Positions 45,732 to 56,930 of a DNA stretch of 64,000 nt are shown in pieces. The notes beneath the pieces are model-generated. The model did no database searches. It saw nothing but the letters and a program-made list of their open reading frames with translations, and was not told the origin of the DNA. The stretch comes from Gallionella sp. Its GTDB lineage: Bacteria > Pseudomonadota > Gammaproteobacteria > Burkholderiales > Gallionellaceae. Location of the stretch: NCBI GenBank assembly GCA_024641025.1, contig JAHEDW010000001.1, forward strand, positions 1 to 64,000. The letters run 5' to 3'. How positions within the stretch are numbered: position 1 is the stretch's first letter; every line of letters begins with the position of its first letter. Both the position numbers and the translations under genes were made by a program.

Positions 45732-46580
45732 ATGAATAATTACACTCGACTTGCCATGATTGGCGTAGTAATTAGCAGTGTTATGCTGTGCGGAGATGCG
45801 CTGTTGTTTTATTATACTTCGACATATCTGCTTGCCGATGTAGTCCTGTTTCTATGCCTCTTGGTCTGCTTGGGATATTTGTTCAAGCAGACCTCTACGC
45901 ATGAAAATCAGCAGACGCCGGGGCGCATTCTTGAAGAAAGCAGTGCATTCCATGCGCAACTTGGCAACGAAATCTCAGGCCAGTTGAGTTCAGCACATAC
46001 CGAACTCGGTAATACTCAGGCGATCCTTAGTGATGCCATCGTCAAGCTGGTCAGTAATTTCATAGCAATATCTGATGAAGTTCGCAACCTTTCTGAGAAC
46101 ACAAACAATTTCAGCAGGCAGTTGCACGAACTGGGGAATAACGTTGGAGCTACGTTGGCTTCCACTGAGCGATCCCTCAGCGGTCTTGCATCAGGTGACA
46201 TTTCTGTCGTGACAGACTCAAGGCAAAATGTACAATCCATGATCAAAGAGCTTACCAAGTTCAATGAAAGCGTCACGCAGAATGCTGTCGAGCTGAATAT
46301 GATCAGCTCGAAAATAGAGCAGAACGTCTTGGTAGTGATTTCTACTTTGCAATTTCAGGATATGAGCACTCAACTGATTGAACACGCAAGATTGCGCATG
46401 ACAGCCCTTCAGGAGGTTGCCAAGGAAATGGGCAAAGGAGGGGGGAACAATGGTGATTATCTGGAGCGCATCGCTGCATACAACCGCCTGCTGGATAAGC
46501 ACGTGGCATCTTTGGACAAACAAAAGGCCAATCCAGTCAAGCAGAAAGACTTTGGTACCGGAGATATTGAGTTGTTTTAA
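45732..46580 (+). CDS. Membrane protein with MCP-like coiled coil and CheZ-like D-x3-Q motif
   Basis: This 282-aa protein has two N-terminal TM helices (about 7-28 and 32-51), then a long cytoplasmic helical region (ISDEVRNLSENTNNFSRQLHEL...) without the MCP signalling tip. At 206-216 it reads LQFQDMSTQLI, resembling the CheZ active site FQDLTGQVI, with Asp210 and Gln214 at the catalytic spacing. It stands directly upstream of cheY, where the cluster lacks any other CheZ. I infer a membrane-bound CheY-P phosphatase. The structural family is not proven and an MCP-derived scaffold is the alternative. Confidence 0.6.
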   Translation: MNNYTRLAMIGVVISSVMLCGDALLFYYTSTYLLADVVLFLCLLVCLGYLFKQTSTHENQQTPGRILEESSAFHAQLGNEISGQLSSAHTELGNTQAILSDAIVKLVSNFIAISDEVRNLSENTNNFSRQLHELGNNVGATLASTERSLSGLASGDISVVTDSRQNVQSMIKELTKFNESVTQNAVELNMISSKIEQNVLVVISTLQFQDMSTQLIEHARLRMTALQEVAKEMGKGGGNNGDYLERIAAYNRLLDKHVASLDKQKANPVKQKDFGTGDIELF

Positions 46581-46743: not shown

Positions 46744-47115
46744 ATGGCCAAAATTATTTTAGCTGTTGATGACTCCACCTCCATTCGGCAGATGGTCGCT
46801 TTCACTCTTAAATCCGCTGGCTATTCTGTCATCGAGGCAGCTGATGGTCAGGAGGGGCTCGACAAGGCTAATTCAAGTAACGATACCATCAGTCTGATTC
46901 TTACAGACCAGAATATGCCCAAGATCGACGGCCTGACCTTGATAAAAACGCTGCGTGGCCAATCAAAATTTGCTTCAACACCTATATTGATGTTGACCAC
47001 CGAATCAAGCGATGACATGAAGGCACAGGGCAAAGCAGCAGGCGCAACAGGATGGCTGGTTAAGCCCTTTGACCCTCATAAGTTGCTCGAGGTCGTAAAG
47101 AAGGTTATTGGATAG
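46744..47115 (+). CDS. cheY: Chemotaxis response regulator CheY
   Basis: This 123-aa single receiver has DD at 9-10, phospho-acceptor Asp55 in ILTDQNMPKIDG, Thr in MLTTESS and Lys in WLVKPFDP. The DQNMPK version is typical of CheY partners of non-enteric CheA clusters. It lies between the CheZ-like membrane protein and cheA, transcribed with them. Phosphorylation by the next gene's product is expected. Confidence 0.94.
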   Translation: MAKIILAVDDSTSIRQMVAFTLKSAGYSVIEAADGQEGLDKANSSNDTISLILTDQNMPKIDGLTLIKTLRGQSKFASTPILMLTTESSDDMKAQGKAAGATGWLVKPFDPHKLLEVVKKVIG

Positions 47116-47191
47116 TGACAGCTTCCACCTTCAGATTCGGGCATGTTTGCCCTCCTGAACTCGTAACTCCATAAATCTCTAGGAAAAGCCG

Positions 47192-49468
47192 ATGTCAATC
47201 GACATGAGCCAATTTTATCAGGCATTCTTTGAAGAGACTGTAGAGCAGCTCGCGAGCATGGAAAGTCTGTTACTGGCTCTGGATCTGGACTCTCCTGATG
47301 GGGATCAATTGAATGCCATATTCCGTGCCGCACATTCCATAAAAGGCGGCAGTGGTACTTTCGGTTTTAATGACATGACCGAAGTGACGCATATTCTTGA
47401 GACACTGTTAGATCGCATTCGCAAGAAAGAAATATCCATCACTTCAGAAATGGTGGACACTTTTTTGACTTCTGTTGACGTATTGAAAGAGATATTGGGG
47501 GCGCACCAGAGCGGGCACATTGCTGATCCAAGTGCATCGATTGCATTGTGCGATAAGCTCGAACGCCTCGCCCAAGGATCGTCGCGCATACCTGTAAAGG
47601 ATTCGAAGGATTTCGCTCGTCCCTCTGTCGCTCAAGAGCATGGAGTCGGGACACCAACCCTACATGTTGCAGCAACTATAAATGGATCGCCTGCCAGGTA
47701 TACCTACCAGATCAAATTTCCCAAGACTCCTGCTGTTTTCCCAAGCAAAAAACACCTGAATAATCTGCTAGAAAATCTTGCCAATATTGGAAATATCAGT
47801 AACAAGGAAATTACTTCAAAGGCAGTAAAGCTGACTCTGAATGCAAATGCATCTGAAGAAGAATTACGTGAAATATTCTCGTACTTCTTAAAACCCAAAC
47901 AACTGTCTATTGTGGCATTGGATGCCCGATTGCCTTTGGCAAGTCCAGAAGACCAAGCGTACGGATTCTTCGAAGAACCAGAAAAAATCAGGGCTCGTCT
48001 CGAAGAAGAACAAGGATATGGATTGTTTGAAGATCCTGAAACGCTCAAGAACGCTGCTGAAAATGCTCAAGGATACGGTTTTTTTGAAGATCAGGAAAAT
48101 ATCAAAGCAAAGCTCGAGGATACACAGGGTTACGGCTTTTTTATGGAACCGCAGGAAATCAAGTCTTCCGTCGAGAATTCGCAGGGCTATGGGTTTTTCA
48201 CTGAAGTGGGGGAAAAATCACAGTCATCCCGGCCTTTCCCTGCTCTCCGGCAAGAGGAAAGCCCAGGCCGCCGTGCCAGTGACAGGGTTACAGCCGCTTC
48301 CCTTGGCGACAGTTCCATCCGAGTAAGCGTAGGGAAAGTCGATAAGATGGTCAATCTAGTCGGTGAATTGGTGATTACCCAAGCGATGCTGGCAGAGACC
48401 GTATCCAAAATGGATGCAGCATTGAACGAAAGCCTAATCAATGGATTGGTTCAACTGGAACGCAATACGCGCGATCTACAGGAATCGGTCATGTCAGTAC
48501 GCATGATGCCAATCAGCTTGGTTTTTAGTCGATTCCAGCGTGTCGTACGAGACAGTGCCGGCAAGCTTAACAAGAAAGTGCAATTAAAGATTGTCGGTGA
48601 GGGAACCGAGCTGGATAAGGGCCTGATCGAAAAGGTCAGCGATCCACTTACACACCTTGTTCGCAACAGTCTTGATCACGGTATCGAAACTCCGGAAGTA
48701 CGGGTCGCCAAGGGTAAGAATCCGCTTGGCACGATCACACTGAGAGCTGCGCACCAAGGAGGAAATATCGTAATTGAGGTGTCTGATGATGGTGCCGGCC
48801 TAAATCGCGAGCGGATTATCGCGAAAGCGAGGGAGAAGGGTATCCCGGTCAGCGATAGCATGAGTGATGCTGATGTCTGGCAAATTATCTTCGCGCCAGG
48901 ATTTTCCACTGCGGCAGTTGTTACGGATGTTTCCGGGCGTGGTGTGGGAATGGATGTGGTCAAGAAAAATATCGAGAGCATCGGCGGTCGTGTCGAAATT
49001 ATTTCCCAGCAAGACCAAGGCAGTTCGATCACCATCCGGTTGCCACTGACTTTGGCCATCCTGGATGGATTGTCGATAGCAGTGGGGGAGCAGAACTACA
49101 TCCTGCCGCTCAGTTTTATCAGCGAGTCACTTCAGCCAGGACCGGGTGATATAAAGGATATCAGCGGTCAAGGGAAGGTAGTGCAAGTGCGAGGGGAATA
49201 TTTACCATTGCTCGCATTGCACAAGGTTTTCAACGTCGATGCAAAGTTTACCGATCCGATGGAAGGCATATTGGTGCTGCTGGAAGCGGAAGGTAAAAAA
49301 GTAGCGCTGCAGGTAGATGAACTCGTGGGGCAGCATCAAGTGGTCATCAAAAGTCTGGAAACAAATTATCGCAAGGTGGCAGGGATTTCTGGCGCCACAA
49401 TCATGGGTGACGGGCGAGTGGCATTGATAATCGATGTTGCAGCGCTGGTAAAATTATCAAAACAATAG
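47192..49468 (+). CDS. cheA: Chemotaxis histidine kinase CheA
   Basis: This 758-aa kinase has the P1 Hpt domain with His48 in AAHSIKGGSGTFG, a P2-like region (about 155-245), a linker with five YGFF/YGLF repeats (256-338), the P3 dimerisation helices, P4 HATPase (LVRNSLDHGIETPE, SDDGAGLNRERI, SGRGVGMDVV) and the P5 CheW-like domain. No receiver is attached, which separates it from the two ChpA-type kinases upstream. It is followed by cheW, mcp and the adaptation genes cheR-cheD-cheB. Confidence 0.95.
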   Translation: MSIDMSQFYQAFFEETVEQLASMESLLLALDLDSPDGDQLNAIFRAAHSIKGGSGTFGFNDMTEVTHILETLLDRIRKKEISITSEMVDTFLTSVDVLKEILGAHQSGHIADPSASIALCDKLERLAQGSSRIPVKDSKDFARPSVAQEHGVGTPTLHVAATINGSPARYTYQIKFPKTPAVFPSKKHLNNLLENLANIGNISNKEITSKAVKLTLNANASEEELREIFSYFLKPKQLSIVALDARLPLASPEDQAYGFFEEPEKIRARLEEEQGYGLFEDPETLKNAAENAQGYGFFEDQENIKAKLEDTQGYGFFMEPQEIKSSVENSQGYGFFTEVGEKSQSSRPFPALRQEESPGRRASDRVTAASLGDSSIRVSVGKVDKMVNLVGELVITQAMLAETVSKMDAALNESLINGLVQLERNTRDLQESVMSVRMMPISLVFSRFQRVVRDSAGKLNKKVQLKIVGEGTELDKGLIEKVSDPLTHLVRNSLDHGIETPEVRVAKGKNPLGTITLRAAHQGGNIVIEVSDDGAGLNRERIIAKAREKGIPVSDSMSDADVWQIIFAPGFSTAAVVTDVSGRGVGMDVVKKNIESIGGRVEIISQQDQGSSITIRLPLTLAILDGLSIAVGEQNYILPLSFISESLQPGPGDIKDISGQGKVVQVRGEYLPLLALHKVFNVDAKFTDPMEGILVLLEAEGKKVALQVDELVGQHQVVIKSLETNYRKVAGISGATIMGDGRVALIIDVAALVKLSKQ
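47957..48206 (+). repeat. Five degenerate YGFF repeats in the CheA linker
   Basis: AYGFFEEPEKIRARLEEEQ / GYGLFEDPETLKNAAENAQ / GYGFFEDQENIKAKLEDTQ / GYGFFMEPQEIKSSVENSQ / GYGFFTEVGEK. The unit is 19 aa, with an invariant YG(F/L)F and a following acidic-helical part. DNA copies differ at many third positions, so the motif appears to be under protein-level selection. Confidence 0.92.
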
Positions 49469-49507
49469 GATGTTCGGGTTGCTTGGTCGAAACATAGGTT
49501 TGGACGG

Positions 49508-50037
49508 AAAAAGGAATCGAGCAAACTCAGTCAGGAGGACATCATGCAGGCAGACCAGGGACAAACAGCGGAAAGCGCCAGTCGTGAGCTGTTGACATTT
49601 ACGCTGGGCAGCGAGGAATACGGGATAGACATCCTCAAGGTCCAGGAAATAAGGGGCTATGAGTCGGTCACCACGATAGCCCATGCACCCGAATTCATCA
49701 AGGGCGTGATCAACTTGCGCGGCATCATCGTGCCGATCGTTGACATGCGCATCAAATTCAAGCTGGGCAATGTGGGCTATGATCAAACAACCGTGGTGAT
49801 CGTGCTCAACATCGGGAGCCGTGTGGTAGGCATGGTGGTAGATGGGGTCTCTGATGTGATTGCGCTTAAACCGGAACAGATTAAGCCTGCGCCGGAATTT
49901 GGAGCCAGTCTGGATACAAAGTATTTGCTAGGATTGGGGACGATTGACGAGCGCATGATCATCCTGGTGGACATTGAACGCTTGATGACGAGCAGGGATA
50001 TGGAATTGATCGAGGCGGCAGAAACCGCTGGGTAGGC
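49508..50037 (+). repeat. 530-bp direct repeat, copy A (cheW)
   Basis: This segment, with 36 nt of upstream leader and the whole cheW gene, is identical base for base, as far as I can compare by eye, to 51792-52321. The copies are 2284 bp apart and enclose one mcp gene. The absence of any synonymous difference implies very recent duplication or gene conversion. Confidence 0.95.
49544..50035 (+). CDS. cheW: Chemotaxis adaptor CheW (copy 1)
   Basis: This 163-aa CheW couples the MCPs to CheA. The core runs from [57 protein letters not shown] to [13 protein letters not shown]. The NLRG-x-IVPIVD motif is complete. AGGAGG lies 5-10 nt before ATG 49544. The protein and DNA are identical to the second cheW at 51828. 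Confidence 0.96.
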
Positions 50038-50093
50038 ACAACTTAGAACACGCAGGATTTCAAGTAGGCAACTAAATTAGGGGGGAAGGTGCC

Positions 50094-51773
50094 ATGGCTT
50101 TGGTAAATCTGAAAGTGGGCGTACGTCTTGGCTTGGGCTTTGGCTTGTTACTGGTACTGATGACGTTGATGGCAGTTTTAGGAATGTCGCGAATTGACAA
50201 TATCAAGAAAAATCTCGACTCCATTGTCGAACACGATGTTGCTGCAATGGGCTATGTCACAGAGATGCGCGAGGCAGTCAATGCTATCGCGATCGCAACT
50301 CGCAATGTCGTGATGCTCACCAACCCTGAGGAAATTGAAGTTCAAACCCGGCGAATTGGCAGTGCATGGGAATATTATGACTCGACAGCAGAATCTTTGG
50401 CAGCGATGGTCGGAAACGAAGCTGTACTTGTGTCAGTCAGTCAGGCCAGCGCAGCCACCAGGCCTTTGTTCAATAAGGTTACACAGCTTGCCGGTGAAAA
50501 CAAGCGAGCGGAGGCAACTCAGTTCTTGCTAAAAGAAGTTCAACCCAGCCTGTCCAAGTGGTATGACGCGATGAATGACATATTGACAGACCGGGAGAAG
50601 GTTATCGAAGAAAGTACAGATGCGGCGCATGCGGCATACAACTTTGCTCGTTGGTTGGTGCTTTCGCTTGCTGGTGCAGGGTTGGTACTTGGGACATTCA
50701 TTGCATGGCTAATTGCCCGGTCGATTATTCGCCCGCTACACCGAGCGGTAGAAATTGCAAGCTCAGTATCCAAAGGCGACCTGACACAACATATCGAGGT
50801 CAAATCCAGAGATGAAACAGGCCAGTTGCTGCGTGCATTGAAGGAAATGAATGAAAACCTGATTGGTATCGTCAGCGGGGTACGCAGTACCACCGATGCG
50901 ATCACAACTGCCTCACAGGAGGTCGCTGCGGGCAACAGCGATCTTTCACAGCGTACCGAGGAGCAGGCTTCCAGTCTGGAAGAGACCGCGTCAAGCATGG
51001 AAGAATTGACTTCGACGGTCAGGCAGAATGCTGAGAACGCCAAGCAGGCCAACCAATTGGCGGCGAACGCTTCCGATGTTGCTGTCAAGGGCGGCCAAGT
51101 GGTCGGCGAGGTGGTGCAGACAATGTCATCGATCAGTGCCAGTTCGAAGAAGGTCGTCGACATCATCAGCGTCATCGAGGGGATCGCATTCCAGACAAAC
51201 ATCCTGGCATTGAACGCGGCAGTGGAAGCGGCGCGTGCCGGCGAGCAAGGTCGTGGATTTGCGGTAGTGGCTTCAGAAGTGCGTAACTTGGCACAACGCT
51301 CGGCTGCGGCGGCCAAGGAGATCAAGGACCTGATCGGAGACTCGGTAGAGAAAGTGGATATTGGTGCCAAACAAGTAGAACAGGCGGGTGCGACGATGGA
51401 AGAGATTGTCAGTGCCGTAAAACGTGTCACCGATATCATGTCCGAGATCGCCGCCGCTTCGAATGAGCAGACTGCAGGAATCGAACAGGTGAACCAGGCA
51501 ATCACCCAGATGGACGAAGTGACCCAACAGAACGCTGCGTTGGTTGAAGAAGCATCGGCAGCAGCCGAATCAATGCGCGAACAGGCAAAAGGCCTGTATA
51601 CGGCGGTTAGTGTTTTCAAATTGGACCGCATCAAGGTCAAGGTTGATGCAAAAGCCGAGCCTGCAAAGGCTGCGTTAGCGCCAGTTTCCGAGATCTCAGC
51701 TGCATCGATCAGAAAGCAGCGCAAGCTGGCTAGGGCCGAGGAGATCAAAGACGGCGAGTGGAAAGAGTTCTAG
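50094..51773 (+). CDS. Methyl-accepting chemotaxis protein (Tsr-like topology) 1
   Basis: This 559-aa receptor has TM1 (13-31), a periplasmic four-helix-bundle (4HB_MCP) sensor of about 155 aa, TM2 (about 188-208), HAMP and a signalling hairpin with the consensus tip [52 protein letters not shown]. The C-terminus [10 protein letters not shown] ends in a W-x-x-F pentapeptide like the CheR/CheB tether NWETF. Its sensor half is unrelated in detail to the neighbouring MCP while the signalling half is nearly identical. Ligand unknown. Confidence 0.94.
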
Positions 51774-51791
51774 TCGATTCAGGTCAGGTTA

Positions 51792-52321
51792 AAAAAGGAA
51801 TCGAGCAAACTCAGTCAGGAGGACATCATGCAGGCAGACCAGGGACAAACAGCGGAAAGCGCCAGTCGTGAGCTGTTGACATTTACGCTGGGCAGCGAGG
51901 AATACGGGATAGACATCCTCAAGGTCCAGGAAATAAGGGGCTATGAGTCGGTCACCACGATAGCCCATGCACCCGAATTCATCAAGGGCGTGATCAACTT
52001 GCGCGGCATCATCGTGCCGATCGTTGACATGCGCATCAAATTCAAGCTGGGCAATGTGGGCTATGATCAAACAACCGTGGTGATCGTGCTCAACATCGGG
52101 AGCCGTGTGGTAGGCATGGTGGTAGATGGGGTCTCTGATGTGATTGCGCTTAAACCGGAACAGATTAAGCCTGCGCCGGAATTTGGAGCCAGTCTGGATA
52201 CAAAGTATTTGCTAGGATTGGGGACGATTGACGAGCGCATGATCATCCTGGTGGACATTGAACGCTTGATGACGAGCAGGGATATGGAATTGATCGAGGC
52301 GGCAGAAACCGCTGGGTAGGC
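51792..52321 (+). repeat. 530-bp direct repeat, copy B (cheW)
   Basis: Second copy of the segment at 49508-50037, in the same orientation, starting with AAAAAGGAATCGAGC and ending GGGTAGGC. It includes the ribosome site, so both cheW copies have the same translation signals. Confidence 0.95.
51828..52319 (+). CDS. cheW: Chemotaxis adaptor CheW (copy 2)
   Basis: This 163-aa protein is identical to the product of 49544-50035, including the leader and AGGAGG site. It is followed by the second MCP gene after 79 nt, so the cluster has two cheW-mcp units in tandem. Two equal copies could raise adaptor dosage; functional difference is impossible at protein level. Confidence 0.96.
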
Positions 52322-52398
52322 GCGTACTGATATTAGCTGCTAATATTATGTCGTATGGGTTAATAATTGAAATATCAATATAAATAGGAGTTTCCACG

Positions 52399-54114
52399 AT
52401 GTTCAAAAACATCAGTATTGGAGTGCGTCTTGGAGTGAGTATCGGGTTTGTGGTAGTACTGTTCTCCGCAACTATGTTTGCGGTTGGGACGGCACTATTT
52501 AATCTCACTAACGACGTCAAACAGATCAATGAAATAACGCTGCCGTACGTAATGGTGGCAGATGAAATGGACCTTGGTCGTTCTGAAGTACAGCAATTCC
52601 TGACAGATGTTTCAGCTACTCACGACCGTGCTGCATACAAGGAAGCCGAAGAGTCGGCTAACAGGTTTTTGAATGGAACTGAAAAGTTCAAGGAGTTGTA
52701 CAGAAGGAATAATGACACTTTCAACCTAAAACAGATTGAAGACATCGAGGTAAGCTTCAACAAATTCTATAACAGTGGAAAAGTGATGGCAGAGGCCTAT
52801 ATCAATAACGGGATTGATGCAGGCAATCTGCTGATGAAAGGCACTGACCAGATAGCCGGTTTTGACCAGGACAGCGAAGCAATTGCCAGTAGTCTGGAAA
52901 AATTTCGTACTCAACAAGTTGCCGAGGCAAACAAGATCACTTTAGGTGCCGTGAGTGCAGCCAACACAACAATGTTTGTGATGATTTGGGGTGGTATCGC
53001 CGCGGCACTTGCGGCTGCTATTTTGGGAGTTTGGATTGTCAGGAGCATTCTGCGTCAACTTGGAGGGGAACCTGCATATGTGGCGGAAGTCGTTTCGAAA
53101 GTTGCAGACGGTGATTTGACAGTTCAAGTACACACAAAAGCAAACGACAACAAAAGCATGCTGTTTGCCATCAGGGGTATGGTAGAAAAATTAATTAGTA
53201 TTGTCAGTGATGTACGAACAACTACCGACGGAATAACAACATCCTCGCAAGAGGTTGCTATGGGCAACAGCGATCTTTCGCAGCGTACCGAGGAGCAGGC
53301 TTCCAGCCTGGAAGAGACCGCGTCAAGCATGGAAGAACTAGCCTCGACGGTCAGGCAGAATGCTGAGAACGCCAAGCAGGCCAACCAATTGGCGGCGAAC
53401 GCTTCCGGCGTTGCTGTCAAGGGCGGCCAAGTGGTCGGCGAGGTGGTTCAGACGATGGCTTCGATCAGTACGAGCTCTAAGAAGATCGTCGACATCATCA
53501 GCGTCATCGAGGGGATCGCATTCCAGACAAACATCCTGGCATTGAACGCGGCAGTGGAAGCGGCGCGTGCCGGCGAGCAAGGTCGTGGATTTGCGGTGGT
53601 GGCCTCAGAAGTACGTAACCTTGCGCAACGCTCGGCTGCGGCATCCAAAGAGATCAAGGACCTGATCGGAGACTCGGTAGAGAAAGTGGATATTGGTGCC
53701 AAACAAGTGGAACAGGCGGGTGCGACGATGGAAGAGATCGTCACCGCGGTAAAACGGGTCACTGACATCATGTCCGAGATTGCCGCTGCCTCGAACGAGC
53801 AAAGCATGGGCATTGAGCAGGTAAACCAGGCAATCACCCAGATGGACGAAGTGACCCAGCAGAACGCCGCGTTGGTTGAAGAGGCGGCTGCAGCTTCAGA
53901 ATCGATGCGAGAACAAGCCAATTCCTTGTACGTAGCGGTGAGCGCATTCAAACTGAAGAAATCCAAAGAAGGTACGCAAACACCTGTCGCCAAGCCATCG
54001 GTTAGGCCTCCCGTAGCTCGTGTGGAAGTTGAAAGGCGTGATTCCATGCCCCCGAAAGAGCGTAAACTCATCAAGGCCAAGGATAATAAGGACGGTGAAT
54101 GGAAAGAATTCTAG
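52399..54114 (+). CDS. Methyl-accepting chemotaxis protein 2
   Basis: This 571-aa receptor has TM1 (10-32), a periplasmic helical sensor (about 33-190; LPYVMVADEMDLGRSEVQQFLTDVSATHDRAAYKEAEESANRF), TM2 (about 191-212), HAMP (RQLGGEPAYVAEVVSKVADGDLTVQV) and a signalling hairpin nearly identical to that of the first MCP. It ends [10 protein letters not shown], again with a W-x-x-F tail. The sensor domain differs from MCP 1, so a different ligand is likely. A weak AGGAG precedes ATG 52399. Confidence 0.94.
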   Translation: MFKNISIGVRLGVSIGFVVVLFSATMFAVGTALFNLTNDVKQINEITLPYVMVADEMDLGRSEVQQFLTDVSATHDRAAYKEAEESANRFLNGTEKFKELYRRNNDTFNLKQIEDIEVSFNKFYNSGKVMAEAYINNGIDAGNLLMKGTDQIAGFDQDSEAIASSLEKFRTQQVAEANKITLGAVSAANTTMFVMIWGGIAAALAAAILGVWIVRSILRQLGGEPAYVAEVVSKVADGDLTVQVHTKANDNKSMLFAIRGMVEKLISIVSDVRTTTDGITTSSQEVAMGNSDLSQRTEEQASSLEETASSMEELASTVRQNAENAKQANQLAANASGVAVKGGQVVGEVVQTMASISTSSKKIVDIISVIEGIAFQTNILALNAAVEAARAGEQGRGFAVVASEVRNLAQRSAAASKEIKDLIGDSVEKVDIGAKQVEQAGATMEEIVTAVKRVTDIMSEIAAASNEQSMGIEQVNQAITQMDEVTQQNAALVEEAAAASESMREQANSLYVAVSAFKLKKSKEGTQTPVAKPSVRPPVARVEVERRDSMPPKERKLIKAKDNKDGEWKEF

Positions 54115-54208
54115 GAGTGTCCACATACCGCTTACTTGGCAGCACCAGTTTTTGGACTGTGTATGTTGAGTTTCAGGTAGTTAATATAGTCCAGTAATTC
54201 GAGAAGCC

Positions 54209-55084
54209 ATGAGTTCTATACTGCCTTCAAGCAGTGGACGTGATCGTGAGTTCAAATTCACTCAAGATGATTTTGAGCGGGTGTCCAAGTTGATTTATGA
54301 GCATGCAGGCATTTCCCTTAAATCCTCGAAGCAGGACATGGTTTACAGTCGTCTGGCACGAAGAGTGCGCGCGACCGGCTTCGATAATTTCAGGGATTAT
54401 CTGGATTACGTGGGTAAGAATGACCCGGTCGAATGGGAAGCGTTCGTTAACTCACTTACTACTAATCTGACGTCATTTTTTCGTGAGCCTCATCACTTCC
54501 CTTTGCTGGCGGAACATGTAATCAAACAGGGAAGAAGCCATCAAATAAGCTTATGGTGTTCAGCTGCTTCAACTGGAGAAGAACCATACTCCATAGCAAT
54601 GACCATGGTGGATGCATTTGGAAGTTTCTCGCCACCTGTTTCCATTTTAGCCACCGACGTAAATACAACTGTACTCGCGAAAGCGGAATCGGGTGTATAC
54701 CCTATCGAACACGTCGAAAAGCTTCCAGCAGACAAGGTGAAGCGATTTTTTCTCAGGGGAACGGGAACCCAGTCAGGATTTGTAAAGGTAAGACCGGAAT
54801 TGCAGGATATGATCACATTTCGGCCAGCCAACCTGCTTGCGGAAAGCTTGCCGATACGCGGCCCCCTTGATGCGATCTTTTGCCGTAATGTGATGATATA
54901 TTTCGACAAGCAGACGCAACTCAAGATACTGCAGCGTTTTGTTCCGCTATTGCAGCCTGACGGACTGGTTTTCGCGGGACATTCGGAAAGTTTTTATAAT
55001 GCCTCACACTTGTTCAGACTGCGCGGTAAAACAGTATACGAATTGGTTAAACCTTATTCACATGAACGACAAGAAAATATATAA
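54209..55084 (+). CDS. cheR: Chemotaxis protein methyltransferase CheR
   Basis: This 291-aa enzyme methylates MCP glutamates with SAM. The N-terminal helical domain (FKFTQDDFERVSKLIYEHAGISLKSSKQDMVYSRLARRVR) precedes the methyltransferase domain with motif I LWCSAASTGEEPYSIAM and DAIFCRNVMIYFDKQTQLKIL. The C-terminal FAGHSESFYNASHLFRLRGKTVYEL is complete. It is followed by cheD and cheB, the usual adaptation set. Confidence 0.95.
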   Translation: MSSILPSSSGRDREFKFTQDDFERVSKLIYEHAGISLKSSKQDMVYSRLARRVRATGFDNFRDYLDYVGKNDPVEWEAFVNSLTTNLTSFFREPHHFPLLAEHVIKQGRSHQISLWCSAASTGEEPYSIAMTMVDAFGSFSPPVSILATDVNTTVLAKAESGVYPIEHVEKLPADKVKRFFLRGTGTQSGFVKVRPELQDMITFRPANLLAESLPIRGPLDAIFCRNVMIYFDKQTQLKILQRFVPLLQPDGLVFAGHSESFYNASHLFRLRGKTVYELVKPYSHERQENI

Positions 55085-55125
55085 CACAACAGATTGGACA
55101 GTTAAGTCGGAAGGGTCGGTTCAGT

Positions 55126-55740
55126 ATGGCTGAGCATGGCTTCGAAGAGATACTTTCGCCACATCTTTATTACGATCGTGAGCATAAATCCGAGGCGGCC
55201 AAGATATTGCCTGGAGAATATTATGCGACTGCCCGCAATATGGTTCTGGTCACTGTACTGGGTTCCTGTGTATGTGCATGCATACGCGACAGGACTAGCA
55301 GGATAGGAGGAATGAACCATTTCATGTTACCCGAAAGCGGACAGGACAGAAACAATCCGCTGGGTGAGTCGGCCCGCTATGGTACCTATGCCATGGAAAT
55401 ATTGATCAACCAGCTGCTCAAAATGGGTGCCAAACGCAGCAACTTGGAGGCGAAGGTATTCGGTGGTGCATCGGTATTACGCGGATTTACCGTCAATAAC
55501 GTCGGCGAGAGAAATGCTGAATTCGTTTTGCAGTTTCTAAAAACAGAACAAATTTCGGTAGTAGCACAGGACCTGCTCGATATCTATCCGCGCAAGGTCT
55601 ATTTCTTTCCCGGTACCGGTTTGGTAAGGGTCAAGGCATTGCGCAATGTACATAACGATACGATCATCAGCAGAGAAGCTGAGTACAACAAGCGGCTGCA
55701 ATATTCCAAGCTCGAAGGAGATGTGGAATTGTTTGGCTAA
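55126..55740 (+). CDS. cheD: Chemoreceptor glutamine deamidase CheD
   Basis: This 204-aa enzyme deamidates receptor Gln residues and modulates adaptation. The catalytic Cys is in VLGSCVCACIRD and the His in GGMNHFMLPES. The FGGASVL block is present. The C-terminal VYFFPGTGLVRVKALRN agrees with family members. GGAAGGG lies before ATG 55126. The gene lies 41 nt after the cheR stop. Confidence 0.94.
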   Translation: MAEHGFEEILSPHLYYDREHKSEAAKILPGEYYATARNMVLVTVLGSCVCACIRDRTSRIGGMNHFMLPESGQDRNNPLGESARYGTYAMEILINQLLKMGAKRSNLEAKVFGGASVLRGFTVNNVGERNAEFVLQFLKTEQISVVAQDLLDIYPRKVYFFPGTGLVRVKALRNVHNDTIISREAEYNKRLQYSKLEGDVELFG

Positions 55741-55844
55741 GGAAAGGAACAGCCATATATACTGGTCAGATATGTAAATACGCCAGTCACAGGCAACTAG
55801 TAAGGCCATATCAGATTCAACCGGACTGTTAAACCGGAGTAATC

Positions 55845-56930
55845 ATGAAAAATCGCAAGATCAAGGTGTTGGTAGTTGACGATTCCGCGCTGATCCGTGC
55901 CGTGATGAAGGAGATCATCAATCGGGAAAGGGATTTGGAGTGCGTGGGAGTTGCACCTGATCCGCTAGTGGCACGCGAGATGATCAAGTCCCTCAATCCG
56001 GACGTACTGACTCTGGATGTGGAAATGCCGAAGATGGACGGGCTGGACTTTTTGGAGCGACTGATGCGCTTGCGGCCAATGCCGGTACTCATGGTCTCAA
56101 CGCTTACCGAACTCGGCTCCGACATCACTTTCCGTGCCCTTGAATTGGGCGCAGTTGATTTTGTTTCCAAGCCAAAACTGGATATTGCTCGGGGCATGGA
56201 AGAATATGCCATCCAAATAACTGACAAAATTCGCGCTGCCGCCCAAGCGCAGGTTGGAAAAGCCACAGCTGTCACGGCCAATGAGAAATATTCAGCAGAT
56301 GCGATATTGCCAACTGTTTCTGGACGGTTTGTTTCAACTGAAAAACTTATCGTTATAGGCGCTTCAACCGGAGGTACTGAAGCGATTAAGGAGATATTGA
56401 CCAAACTACCAGCAGATGCGCCGGGCGTTCTGGTGACTCAACATATGCCAGAACACTTTACCAAGTCGTTCGCGGACCGTCTGGATACGCTGTGCAGGAT
56501 CTCAGTCAAAGAAGCAGAGCATAACGAGCGTATCCTTCCTGGGCACGCCTATATTGCTCCGGGCCACTCGCATTTGCTGCTAAAGCGTAGTGGAACAAAT
56601 TATATGACCCAACTGGATCAAGGAGAGTTGGTCAATCGACATCGACCTTCCGTTGATGTGCTTTTCCGTTCGGCAGCCAACGCTGCGGGATCAAACGCCT
56701 TGGGAATCATACTGACCGGCATGGGCAAGGATGGCGTGCAGGGCCTGCTGGAATTGAAAAAAGCAGGTGCCCACACCATTGCCCAGAATGAAGCAAGTTG
56801 CGTTGTGTTTGGTATGCCAAAGGAAGCGATTGCAGCGGGTGGCGTGCGTGAAGTACTTCCTCTACAGGATATCGCAAAGCGGACTATGGAATATCTCGAA
56901 TCCCGTGGTGCTAGAAACACCCGTGTATAA
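55845..56930 (+). CDS. cheB: Chemotaxis methylesterase/response regulator CheB
   Basis: This 361-aa enzyme removes receptor methyl groups. The N-terminal receiver ([19 protein letters not shown], Asp in [23 protein letters not shown]) is joined to the methylesterase domain. The catalytic Ser is in [11 protein letters not shown], His in [17 protein letters not shown] and Asp in [19 protein letters not shown]. It is the last gene of the che cluster and ends before a strong terminator. Confidence 0.96.

Follow-up and report, generated by a model that had tools for sequence, protein, structure and literature searches.

The window analysed here, a 64,000-nucleotide stretch of Gallionella sp. DNA, encodes a chemotaxis kinase, CheA, that carries five copies of a short YG[FL]F motif in the linker between its P2 and P3 regions. 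The nearest named relatives of the window genome are Gallionella and Ferrigenium metagenome-assembled genomes. Our preferred interpretation, to which we assign a probability of roughly 0.45, is that this linker array of [YF]-G-[FL]-F motifs docks the cognate single-domain CheY encoded beside cheA, close to the phosphorylated P1 domain. It is directly supported that the motif exists, that it is under selection and conserved, that the linker is predicted to be disordered, that the motif does not depend on P2 and that it co-occurs with this CheY. The features concerned are the following (pLDDT, predicted local distance difference test).

47192..49468, + strand: cheA, 758 amino acids, architecture P1-P2-[YGFF]5-P3-P4-P5 (Pfam; NCBIfam PRK10547, 759 bits)
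47699..47917, + strand: P2-like domain, residues 170-242 (Pfam CheY-binding, 25.4 bits; AlphaFold2 beta-alpha-beta, pLDDT mostly >85)
47924..48328, + strand: disordered linker with the array, residues 245-379 (pLDDT <50 for 245-265 and 271-379)
47954..48010, + strand: unit 1, QAYGFFEEPEKIRARLEEE
48011..48067, + strand: unit 2, QGYGLFEDPETLKNAAENA
48068..48124, + strand: unit 3, QGYGFFEDQENIKAKLEDT
48125..48181, + strand: unit 4, QGYGFFMEPQEIKSSVENS
48182..48214, + strand: unit 5, the half unit QGYGFFTEVGE

The YG[FL]F copies start at CheA residues 257, 276, 295, 314 and 333, with a period of exactly 19 amino acids. When the linker was shuffled 20,000 times, no shuffle contained even two YG[FL]F copies. 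The original prediction of five repeats of 19 amino acids in this linker is confirmed in its placement and period, with two corrections: the fifth repeat, QGYGFFTEVGEK, amounts to roughly half a unit, and conservation concerns a core of four to six residues rather than the whole 19-mer. Differences between units at codon positions 1, 2 and 3 amount to 0.30, 0.27 and 0.66, and the pooled units give a proportion of synonymous differences (pS) of 0.89 and of nonsynonymous differences (pN) of 0.29. Partitioning the units revealed that pN is 0.05 with saturated pS in the QGYGFF core, and 0.44 with pS 0.74 in the spacers that make up the remainder. The selection that had been proposed from third-position divergence alongside protein conservation therefore holds, mainly in the core. 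In an alignment of 41 CheA sequences, G258, F259 and F260 are the sole near-invariant residues between 231 and 376. Taken together, the core pN of 0.05, its saturated pS and the shuffling result indicate that the array is real, derives from an old duplication and is under purifying selection in its core. A search of the genome for other GYGFF proteins with a degenerate DNA pattern yielded, among the three non-CheA matches that were opened, a single open frame that fitted the pattern, encoding an unrelated membrane-type protein.

The product of cheA is identified as a CheA by Pfam Hpt (residues 8-98), dimerisation (H-kinase_dim, 374-436), HATPase (483-620) and CheW-like (626-754) domains in this order; its match to PRK10547 falls slightly below the cut-off of 793 bits. 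The Pfam match to the CheY-binding domain, P2 (PF09078), is weak, covering residues 186-240 at 25.4 bits with a cut-off of 24. AlphaFold2, run on CheA alone with 41 homologues, gave good folds for P1, P2 and P4-P5 and a moderate one for P3, kept the linker mostly below pLDDT 50, the array included, and packed no YGFF motif onto any other CheA domain. P2 is a folded domain and the array, which lies behind the P2-like domain, is predicted to be disordered; the array is thus not a P2, but it may work like one.

A survey of the named relatives and of other genomes of the order and class showed one to six copies of [YF]-G-[FL]-F in the linker of almost every related betaproteobacterial CheA and of some gammaproteobacterial ones. 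Among 275 different contexts collected from some 130 CheAs the last F, the [FL] and the [YF] positions each agree in 99%, and the core G in 100%, a figure to be read with the fact that the search pattern itself demanded it; under the looser pattern [FYW]x[FL]F, G is found in 353 of 380 matches. The resulting consensus is acidic/Q - G - [YF] - G - [FL] - F - [DEVQT] - [EDP], with an invariant core Gly. Close relatives mostly keep the 19-residue unit in two to five copies; beyond them the flanks are variable, neighbouring motifs are spaced by 15 to 31 residues, and the surrounding sequence takes on forms like GFGFFDGAPGAP or GYGFFQPLEQIR. Three FGFF motifs and a typical CheY at 152 bits occur together at L334, whose gammaproteobacterial CheA is more distantly related. 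The variation in copy number and spacing marks the five-fold array of the window as a locally expanded form of a motif with a wide distribution. Of the two things that were expected to be conserved in related CheAs, motif and repeat number, only the motif is. The motif is missing from 56 relatives, most of them in one clade, and their linkers contain not one match to [FYW]x[FL][FYW].

The genes of the window cluster are arranged as the 45732 gene (described below), cheY, cheA, cheW, mcp, cheW, mcp, cheR, cheD and cheB, and from 46744 to 56930 their order corresponds to the cheY-cheA-cheW-mcp-cheR-cheD-cheB order described for F7 systems (PMC7184735), the class being assigned from gene order alone. 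The proposed ligand lies directly upstream of the kinase gene.

46744..47115, + strand: cheY ("F7-type CheY"), proposed array ligand (Response_reg; motif co-occurrence)

Gene content was compared across 75 non-redundant clusters, in which CheY was scored against the window CheY and called typical at 140 bits or more. A CheY of at least 140 bits lies directly beside cheA in 52 of the 53 motif-bearing clusters, and in the exception (L258) a CheY of 158 bits is located 4.4 kb upstream. Conversely, 21 of the 22 motif-less clusters lack a typical CheY, 12 having no cheY within 1.5 kb upstream and nine a diverged one (51-110 bits); the exception, L242, has a CheY of 148 bits and has kept a degenerate AGFF. 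Motif and typical adjacent CheY are thus concordant in 73 of the 75 clusters. Within a single family, the motif is combined with a typical upstream CheY in L302-L304 and L306, and the other eleven members sampled (L305, L307-L316) have neither. CheR, CheB, CheW and CheD do not track the motif and are retained in many motif-less clusters; in L233, L235 and L236, for example, cheR, cheD and cheB are kept while upstream cheY and motif are both missing. These comparisons suggest that, among the che genes, only the upstream cheY tracks the motif.

P2 is established as the docking site by which CheA enhances phosphotransfer to CheY but is not essential, and more than half of CheA proteins have no recognisable P2 (PMC10782961). 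Since PF09078 misses most divergent P2 domains, absence of P2 was judged by how far the first motif lies from P1. Nine non-redundant motif-bearing CheAs, some of them from Gallionellaceae and from gammaproteobacterial clusters, leave no room for a P2 in this interval. These carry three to six motif copies, 4.0 on average, and those that have a P2 average 2.6 (p=0.013, relatedness being left uncorrected). Judging from gene order, the gammaproteobacterial clusters appear to resemble che cluster II of P. aeruginosa. Retention of the motif in kinases without P2 is what one would expect if it stood in for P2 as a docking device. Other CheAs hold further domains: one betaproteobacterial CheA, seen in L034 and L197, has two tandem P2-like domains and a single FGLF motif, and a gammaproteobacterial CheA (L147) has a globin domain (PF00042, 73.8 bits) between P2 and P3.

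In the proposed mechanism the disordered linker would serve as a tether and the selected hydrophobic core as the CheY-binding element. Several copies, up to 10 sites per CheA dimer in the window protein, would raise the local concentration of CheY near P1 and with it the rate of phosphotransfer, and the array could replace P2. The F7 system is reported to have recruited an F6 CheY/CheZ pair for motor control, after which enteric bacteria lost the original F7 CheY (PMC7184735). Under a division of labour, P2 would serve, or mainly serve, this second, motor-directed CheY, and the original F7 CheY would have kept a specific place of its own on the kinase after the motor CheY was recruited. The docking model predicts that the motif should be lost in the same part of the tree as the enteric F7 cheY, and this is where its loss is found. 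If the model is true, the linker would constitute a tunable, multivalent docking site that is easily found by sequence, and P2-less kinases would have, in a conserved array of linear motifs, another way to choose among several CheYs.

Several observations weigh against CheY docking. Docking was tested at loci where cheY and cheA share one frame, with the intervening stop codons read through; for L005, AlphaFold2 on the cheY-cheA N-terminal-half read-through (22 alignment rows) gave all motifs a pLDDT below 50 and showed no docking. Monomer networks with shallow alignments often miss peptide-docking contacts, and the L005 negative is weak on account of its 22 rows, the presence of a P2 and the use of a monomer network. 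CheY residues that separate the two groups are scattered over alpha1, alpha4, beta5 and alpha5, and the G, V and F of the CheY segment xGxAAGATGWxVKPF also occur in the CheYs of motif-less systems. In a tree of the CheA core all motif-less CheAs other than L237 and L242 fall into a single well supported clade, and parsimony requires three changes for each trait, of which only one or two are independent concordant pairs, far from significance. With so few independent changes the association of motif and CheY is suggestive, not significant, and the adjacency of cheY and cheA means that co-inheritance can mimic co-evolution. L332, finally, lacks the motif and has a CheY scoring 145 bits. Of the claim that the repeats are multivalent binding peptides, the core, the disorder, the variable copy number and spacing, and the conservation across genera fit. 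As for recruitment of CheY, gene content points to the one encoded directly upstream of cheA as a candidate partner; the few independent changes and the negative AlphaFold2 result weigh against it. A YGFF-binding patch on the alpha4-beta5-alpha5 side of CheY, sought by differential conservation, was rejected (Fisher p=0.16, several residues being ancestral).

The motifs might instead be aromatic stickers acting within or between CheAs, either holding P1 or the linker to the core or providing condensate-like array cohesion. Regular aromatics in acidic disordered spacers, with copies (one to six) and spacing varying freely, would suit such a role. We nevertheless consider it unlikely, because the core is over-specific for a sticker (Gly in 275 of 275 contexts and in most of the looser matches), because the AlphaFold2 model places no motif on a CheA domain, and because the association with the adjacent CheY is left unexplained.

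A second possibility is that the motifs mimic, inside the kinase, the receptor pentapeptide x-[HFYW]-x2-[HFYW], tethering CheR and/or CheB to the kinase layer. G-Y-G-F-F fits this published pattern (PMC7184735), and the window receptors end in GEWKEF, which implies CheR/CheB of the pentapeptide type; cheR-cheB are present in nearly all motif-bearing clusters with enough flank. For comparison, the GWEEF pentapeptide binds CheR2 at 0.52 uM and CheB2 at 93 uM by isothermal titration calorimetry (PMC7698151). The probability of this explanation is lowered, to the point that we regard it as rather improbable, by the survival in motif-less clusters of CheR, CheB and receptor WxxF tails (DWETF, DWTTF, NWETF, EWEEF). 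Moreover, an invariant Gly and an aromatic or Leu at position 4 are not required of pentapeptides, and those described lie at the receptor C-terminus, whereas YGFF is internal to CheA.

Alternatively, the array could dock an uncharacterised scaffold or another protein of the cluster, for which there are two candidates.

45732..46580, + strand: putative membrane-anchored CheZ-like CheY phosphatase with a C-terminal GDIELF tail (FQDMSTQ motif; tail conserved in family)
55126..55740, + strand: cheD, with a C-terminal GDVELFG tail (NCBIfam PRK13487; tails compared)

The [VI][DE]LF tails of CheD and of the 45732 family loosely resemble Y-G-F-F, and cheD is present in all surveyed motif-bearing genomes. 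CheD was considered as the partner when the motif loci were seen to contain cheR-cheD-cheB, and was dropped when cheD was found without the motif in L232, L233, L235 and L236, as it also is in L237. A conserved terminal G-x-[VI]-[DE]-L-F is shared by the CheD of F7 and the CheDs of other, motif-less systems (L337-L346), and the tail is lost or extended by extra residues in several motif-less F7 clusters. Its presence in motif-less systems weakened the idea of a tail code common to CheA YGFF and CheD VELF. The 45732 protein does look CheZ-like, as had been suggested. Since no more than 20 of 34 clusters with the motif were found to encode it, it is unlikely to be a general partner of the array. 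Docking of any of these other proteins seems to us quite unlikely. If the linker simply tolerated neutral tandem duplications and had no specific partner, this would account for a 19-residue register limited to near relatives and for the varying copy number. Such an explanation is hardly credible given the substitution pattern of the core between units, the retention of GFF in different genera where the rest of the linker aligns poorly, and the lack of any [FYW]x[FL][FYW] in the 56 motif-less linkers.

The array has counterparts in known systems. Like the array, P2 (PF09078) lies between P1 and P3, but it is folded and normally single, whereas the array is disordered, repeated and kept in P2-less CheAs. 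The C-terminal CheZ peptide QVDDLLDSLGF is short, sits at a flexible chain end and binds CheY (cited in PMC7698151, ref. 45); it differs from the array in sequence, in being single and in belonging to a phosphatase instead of a kinase. The receptor pentapeptide xWxxF resembles the array as an aromatic-x-x-Phe in a flexible segment and concentrates an enzyme at the chemosensory array; the YGFF motifs are internal, repeated, located in the kinase and possessed of an invariant Gly, and are lost where pentapeptides stay. The vibrio CheA LID domain, which binds ParP (PMC5706961), is, by its description, likewise a CheA region for protein recruitment. Our literature search, which took in only a minority of subscription papers, found no paper on chemotaxis in which CheA appears together with YGFF or FGFF, and a survey of CheA domains (PMC10782961) never uses the word "motif". 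The receiver-docking element of CheA is known as a folded domain; what is new here is a putative docking element in the form of a repeated linear motif.

A more far-reaching version of CheY docking can be formulated, which we hold to be unlikely as a whole. As the original receiver-docking device of F7 CheA, the array would predate P2 in this lineage, and it would compete for one face of the adjacent CheY with the C-terminal [VI][DE]LF tails of the CheZ-like phosphatase and CheD; this peptide-switch network would have been dismantled once the motor-directed CheY/CheZ pair took over.

The 45732 family adjoins the F7-type cheY, directly upstream, and its members have a conserved C-terminal tail and, where the pattern was read, FQD-x-[ST]-x-Q or FQDxxxQ. 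FQDMSTQ of the 45732 protein was aligned with FQDLTGQ of CheZ, a weak match (hhalign probability 10%); in CheZ the catalytic D and Q lie four residues apart on a long helix. From these similarities, the 45732 protein may be the missing phosphatase of the F7-type CheY. Its gammaproteobacterial relatives in L362-L364 may be the McpA-like proteins that have a conserved C-terminus, and another Gallionellaceae genome (L370) encodes an unassigned protein with an FQFYDRLSQ motif and a GDIELF C-terminus like that of the 45732 family. Elsewhere in the cluster, the two cheW genes (49544-50035 and 51828-52319) are identical in all 492 bases and in 36 upstream bases, an identity that points to a very recent duplication or conversion.
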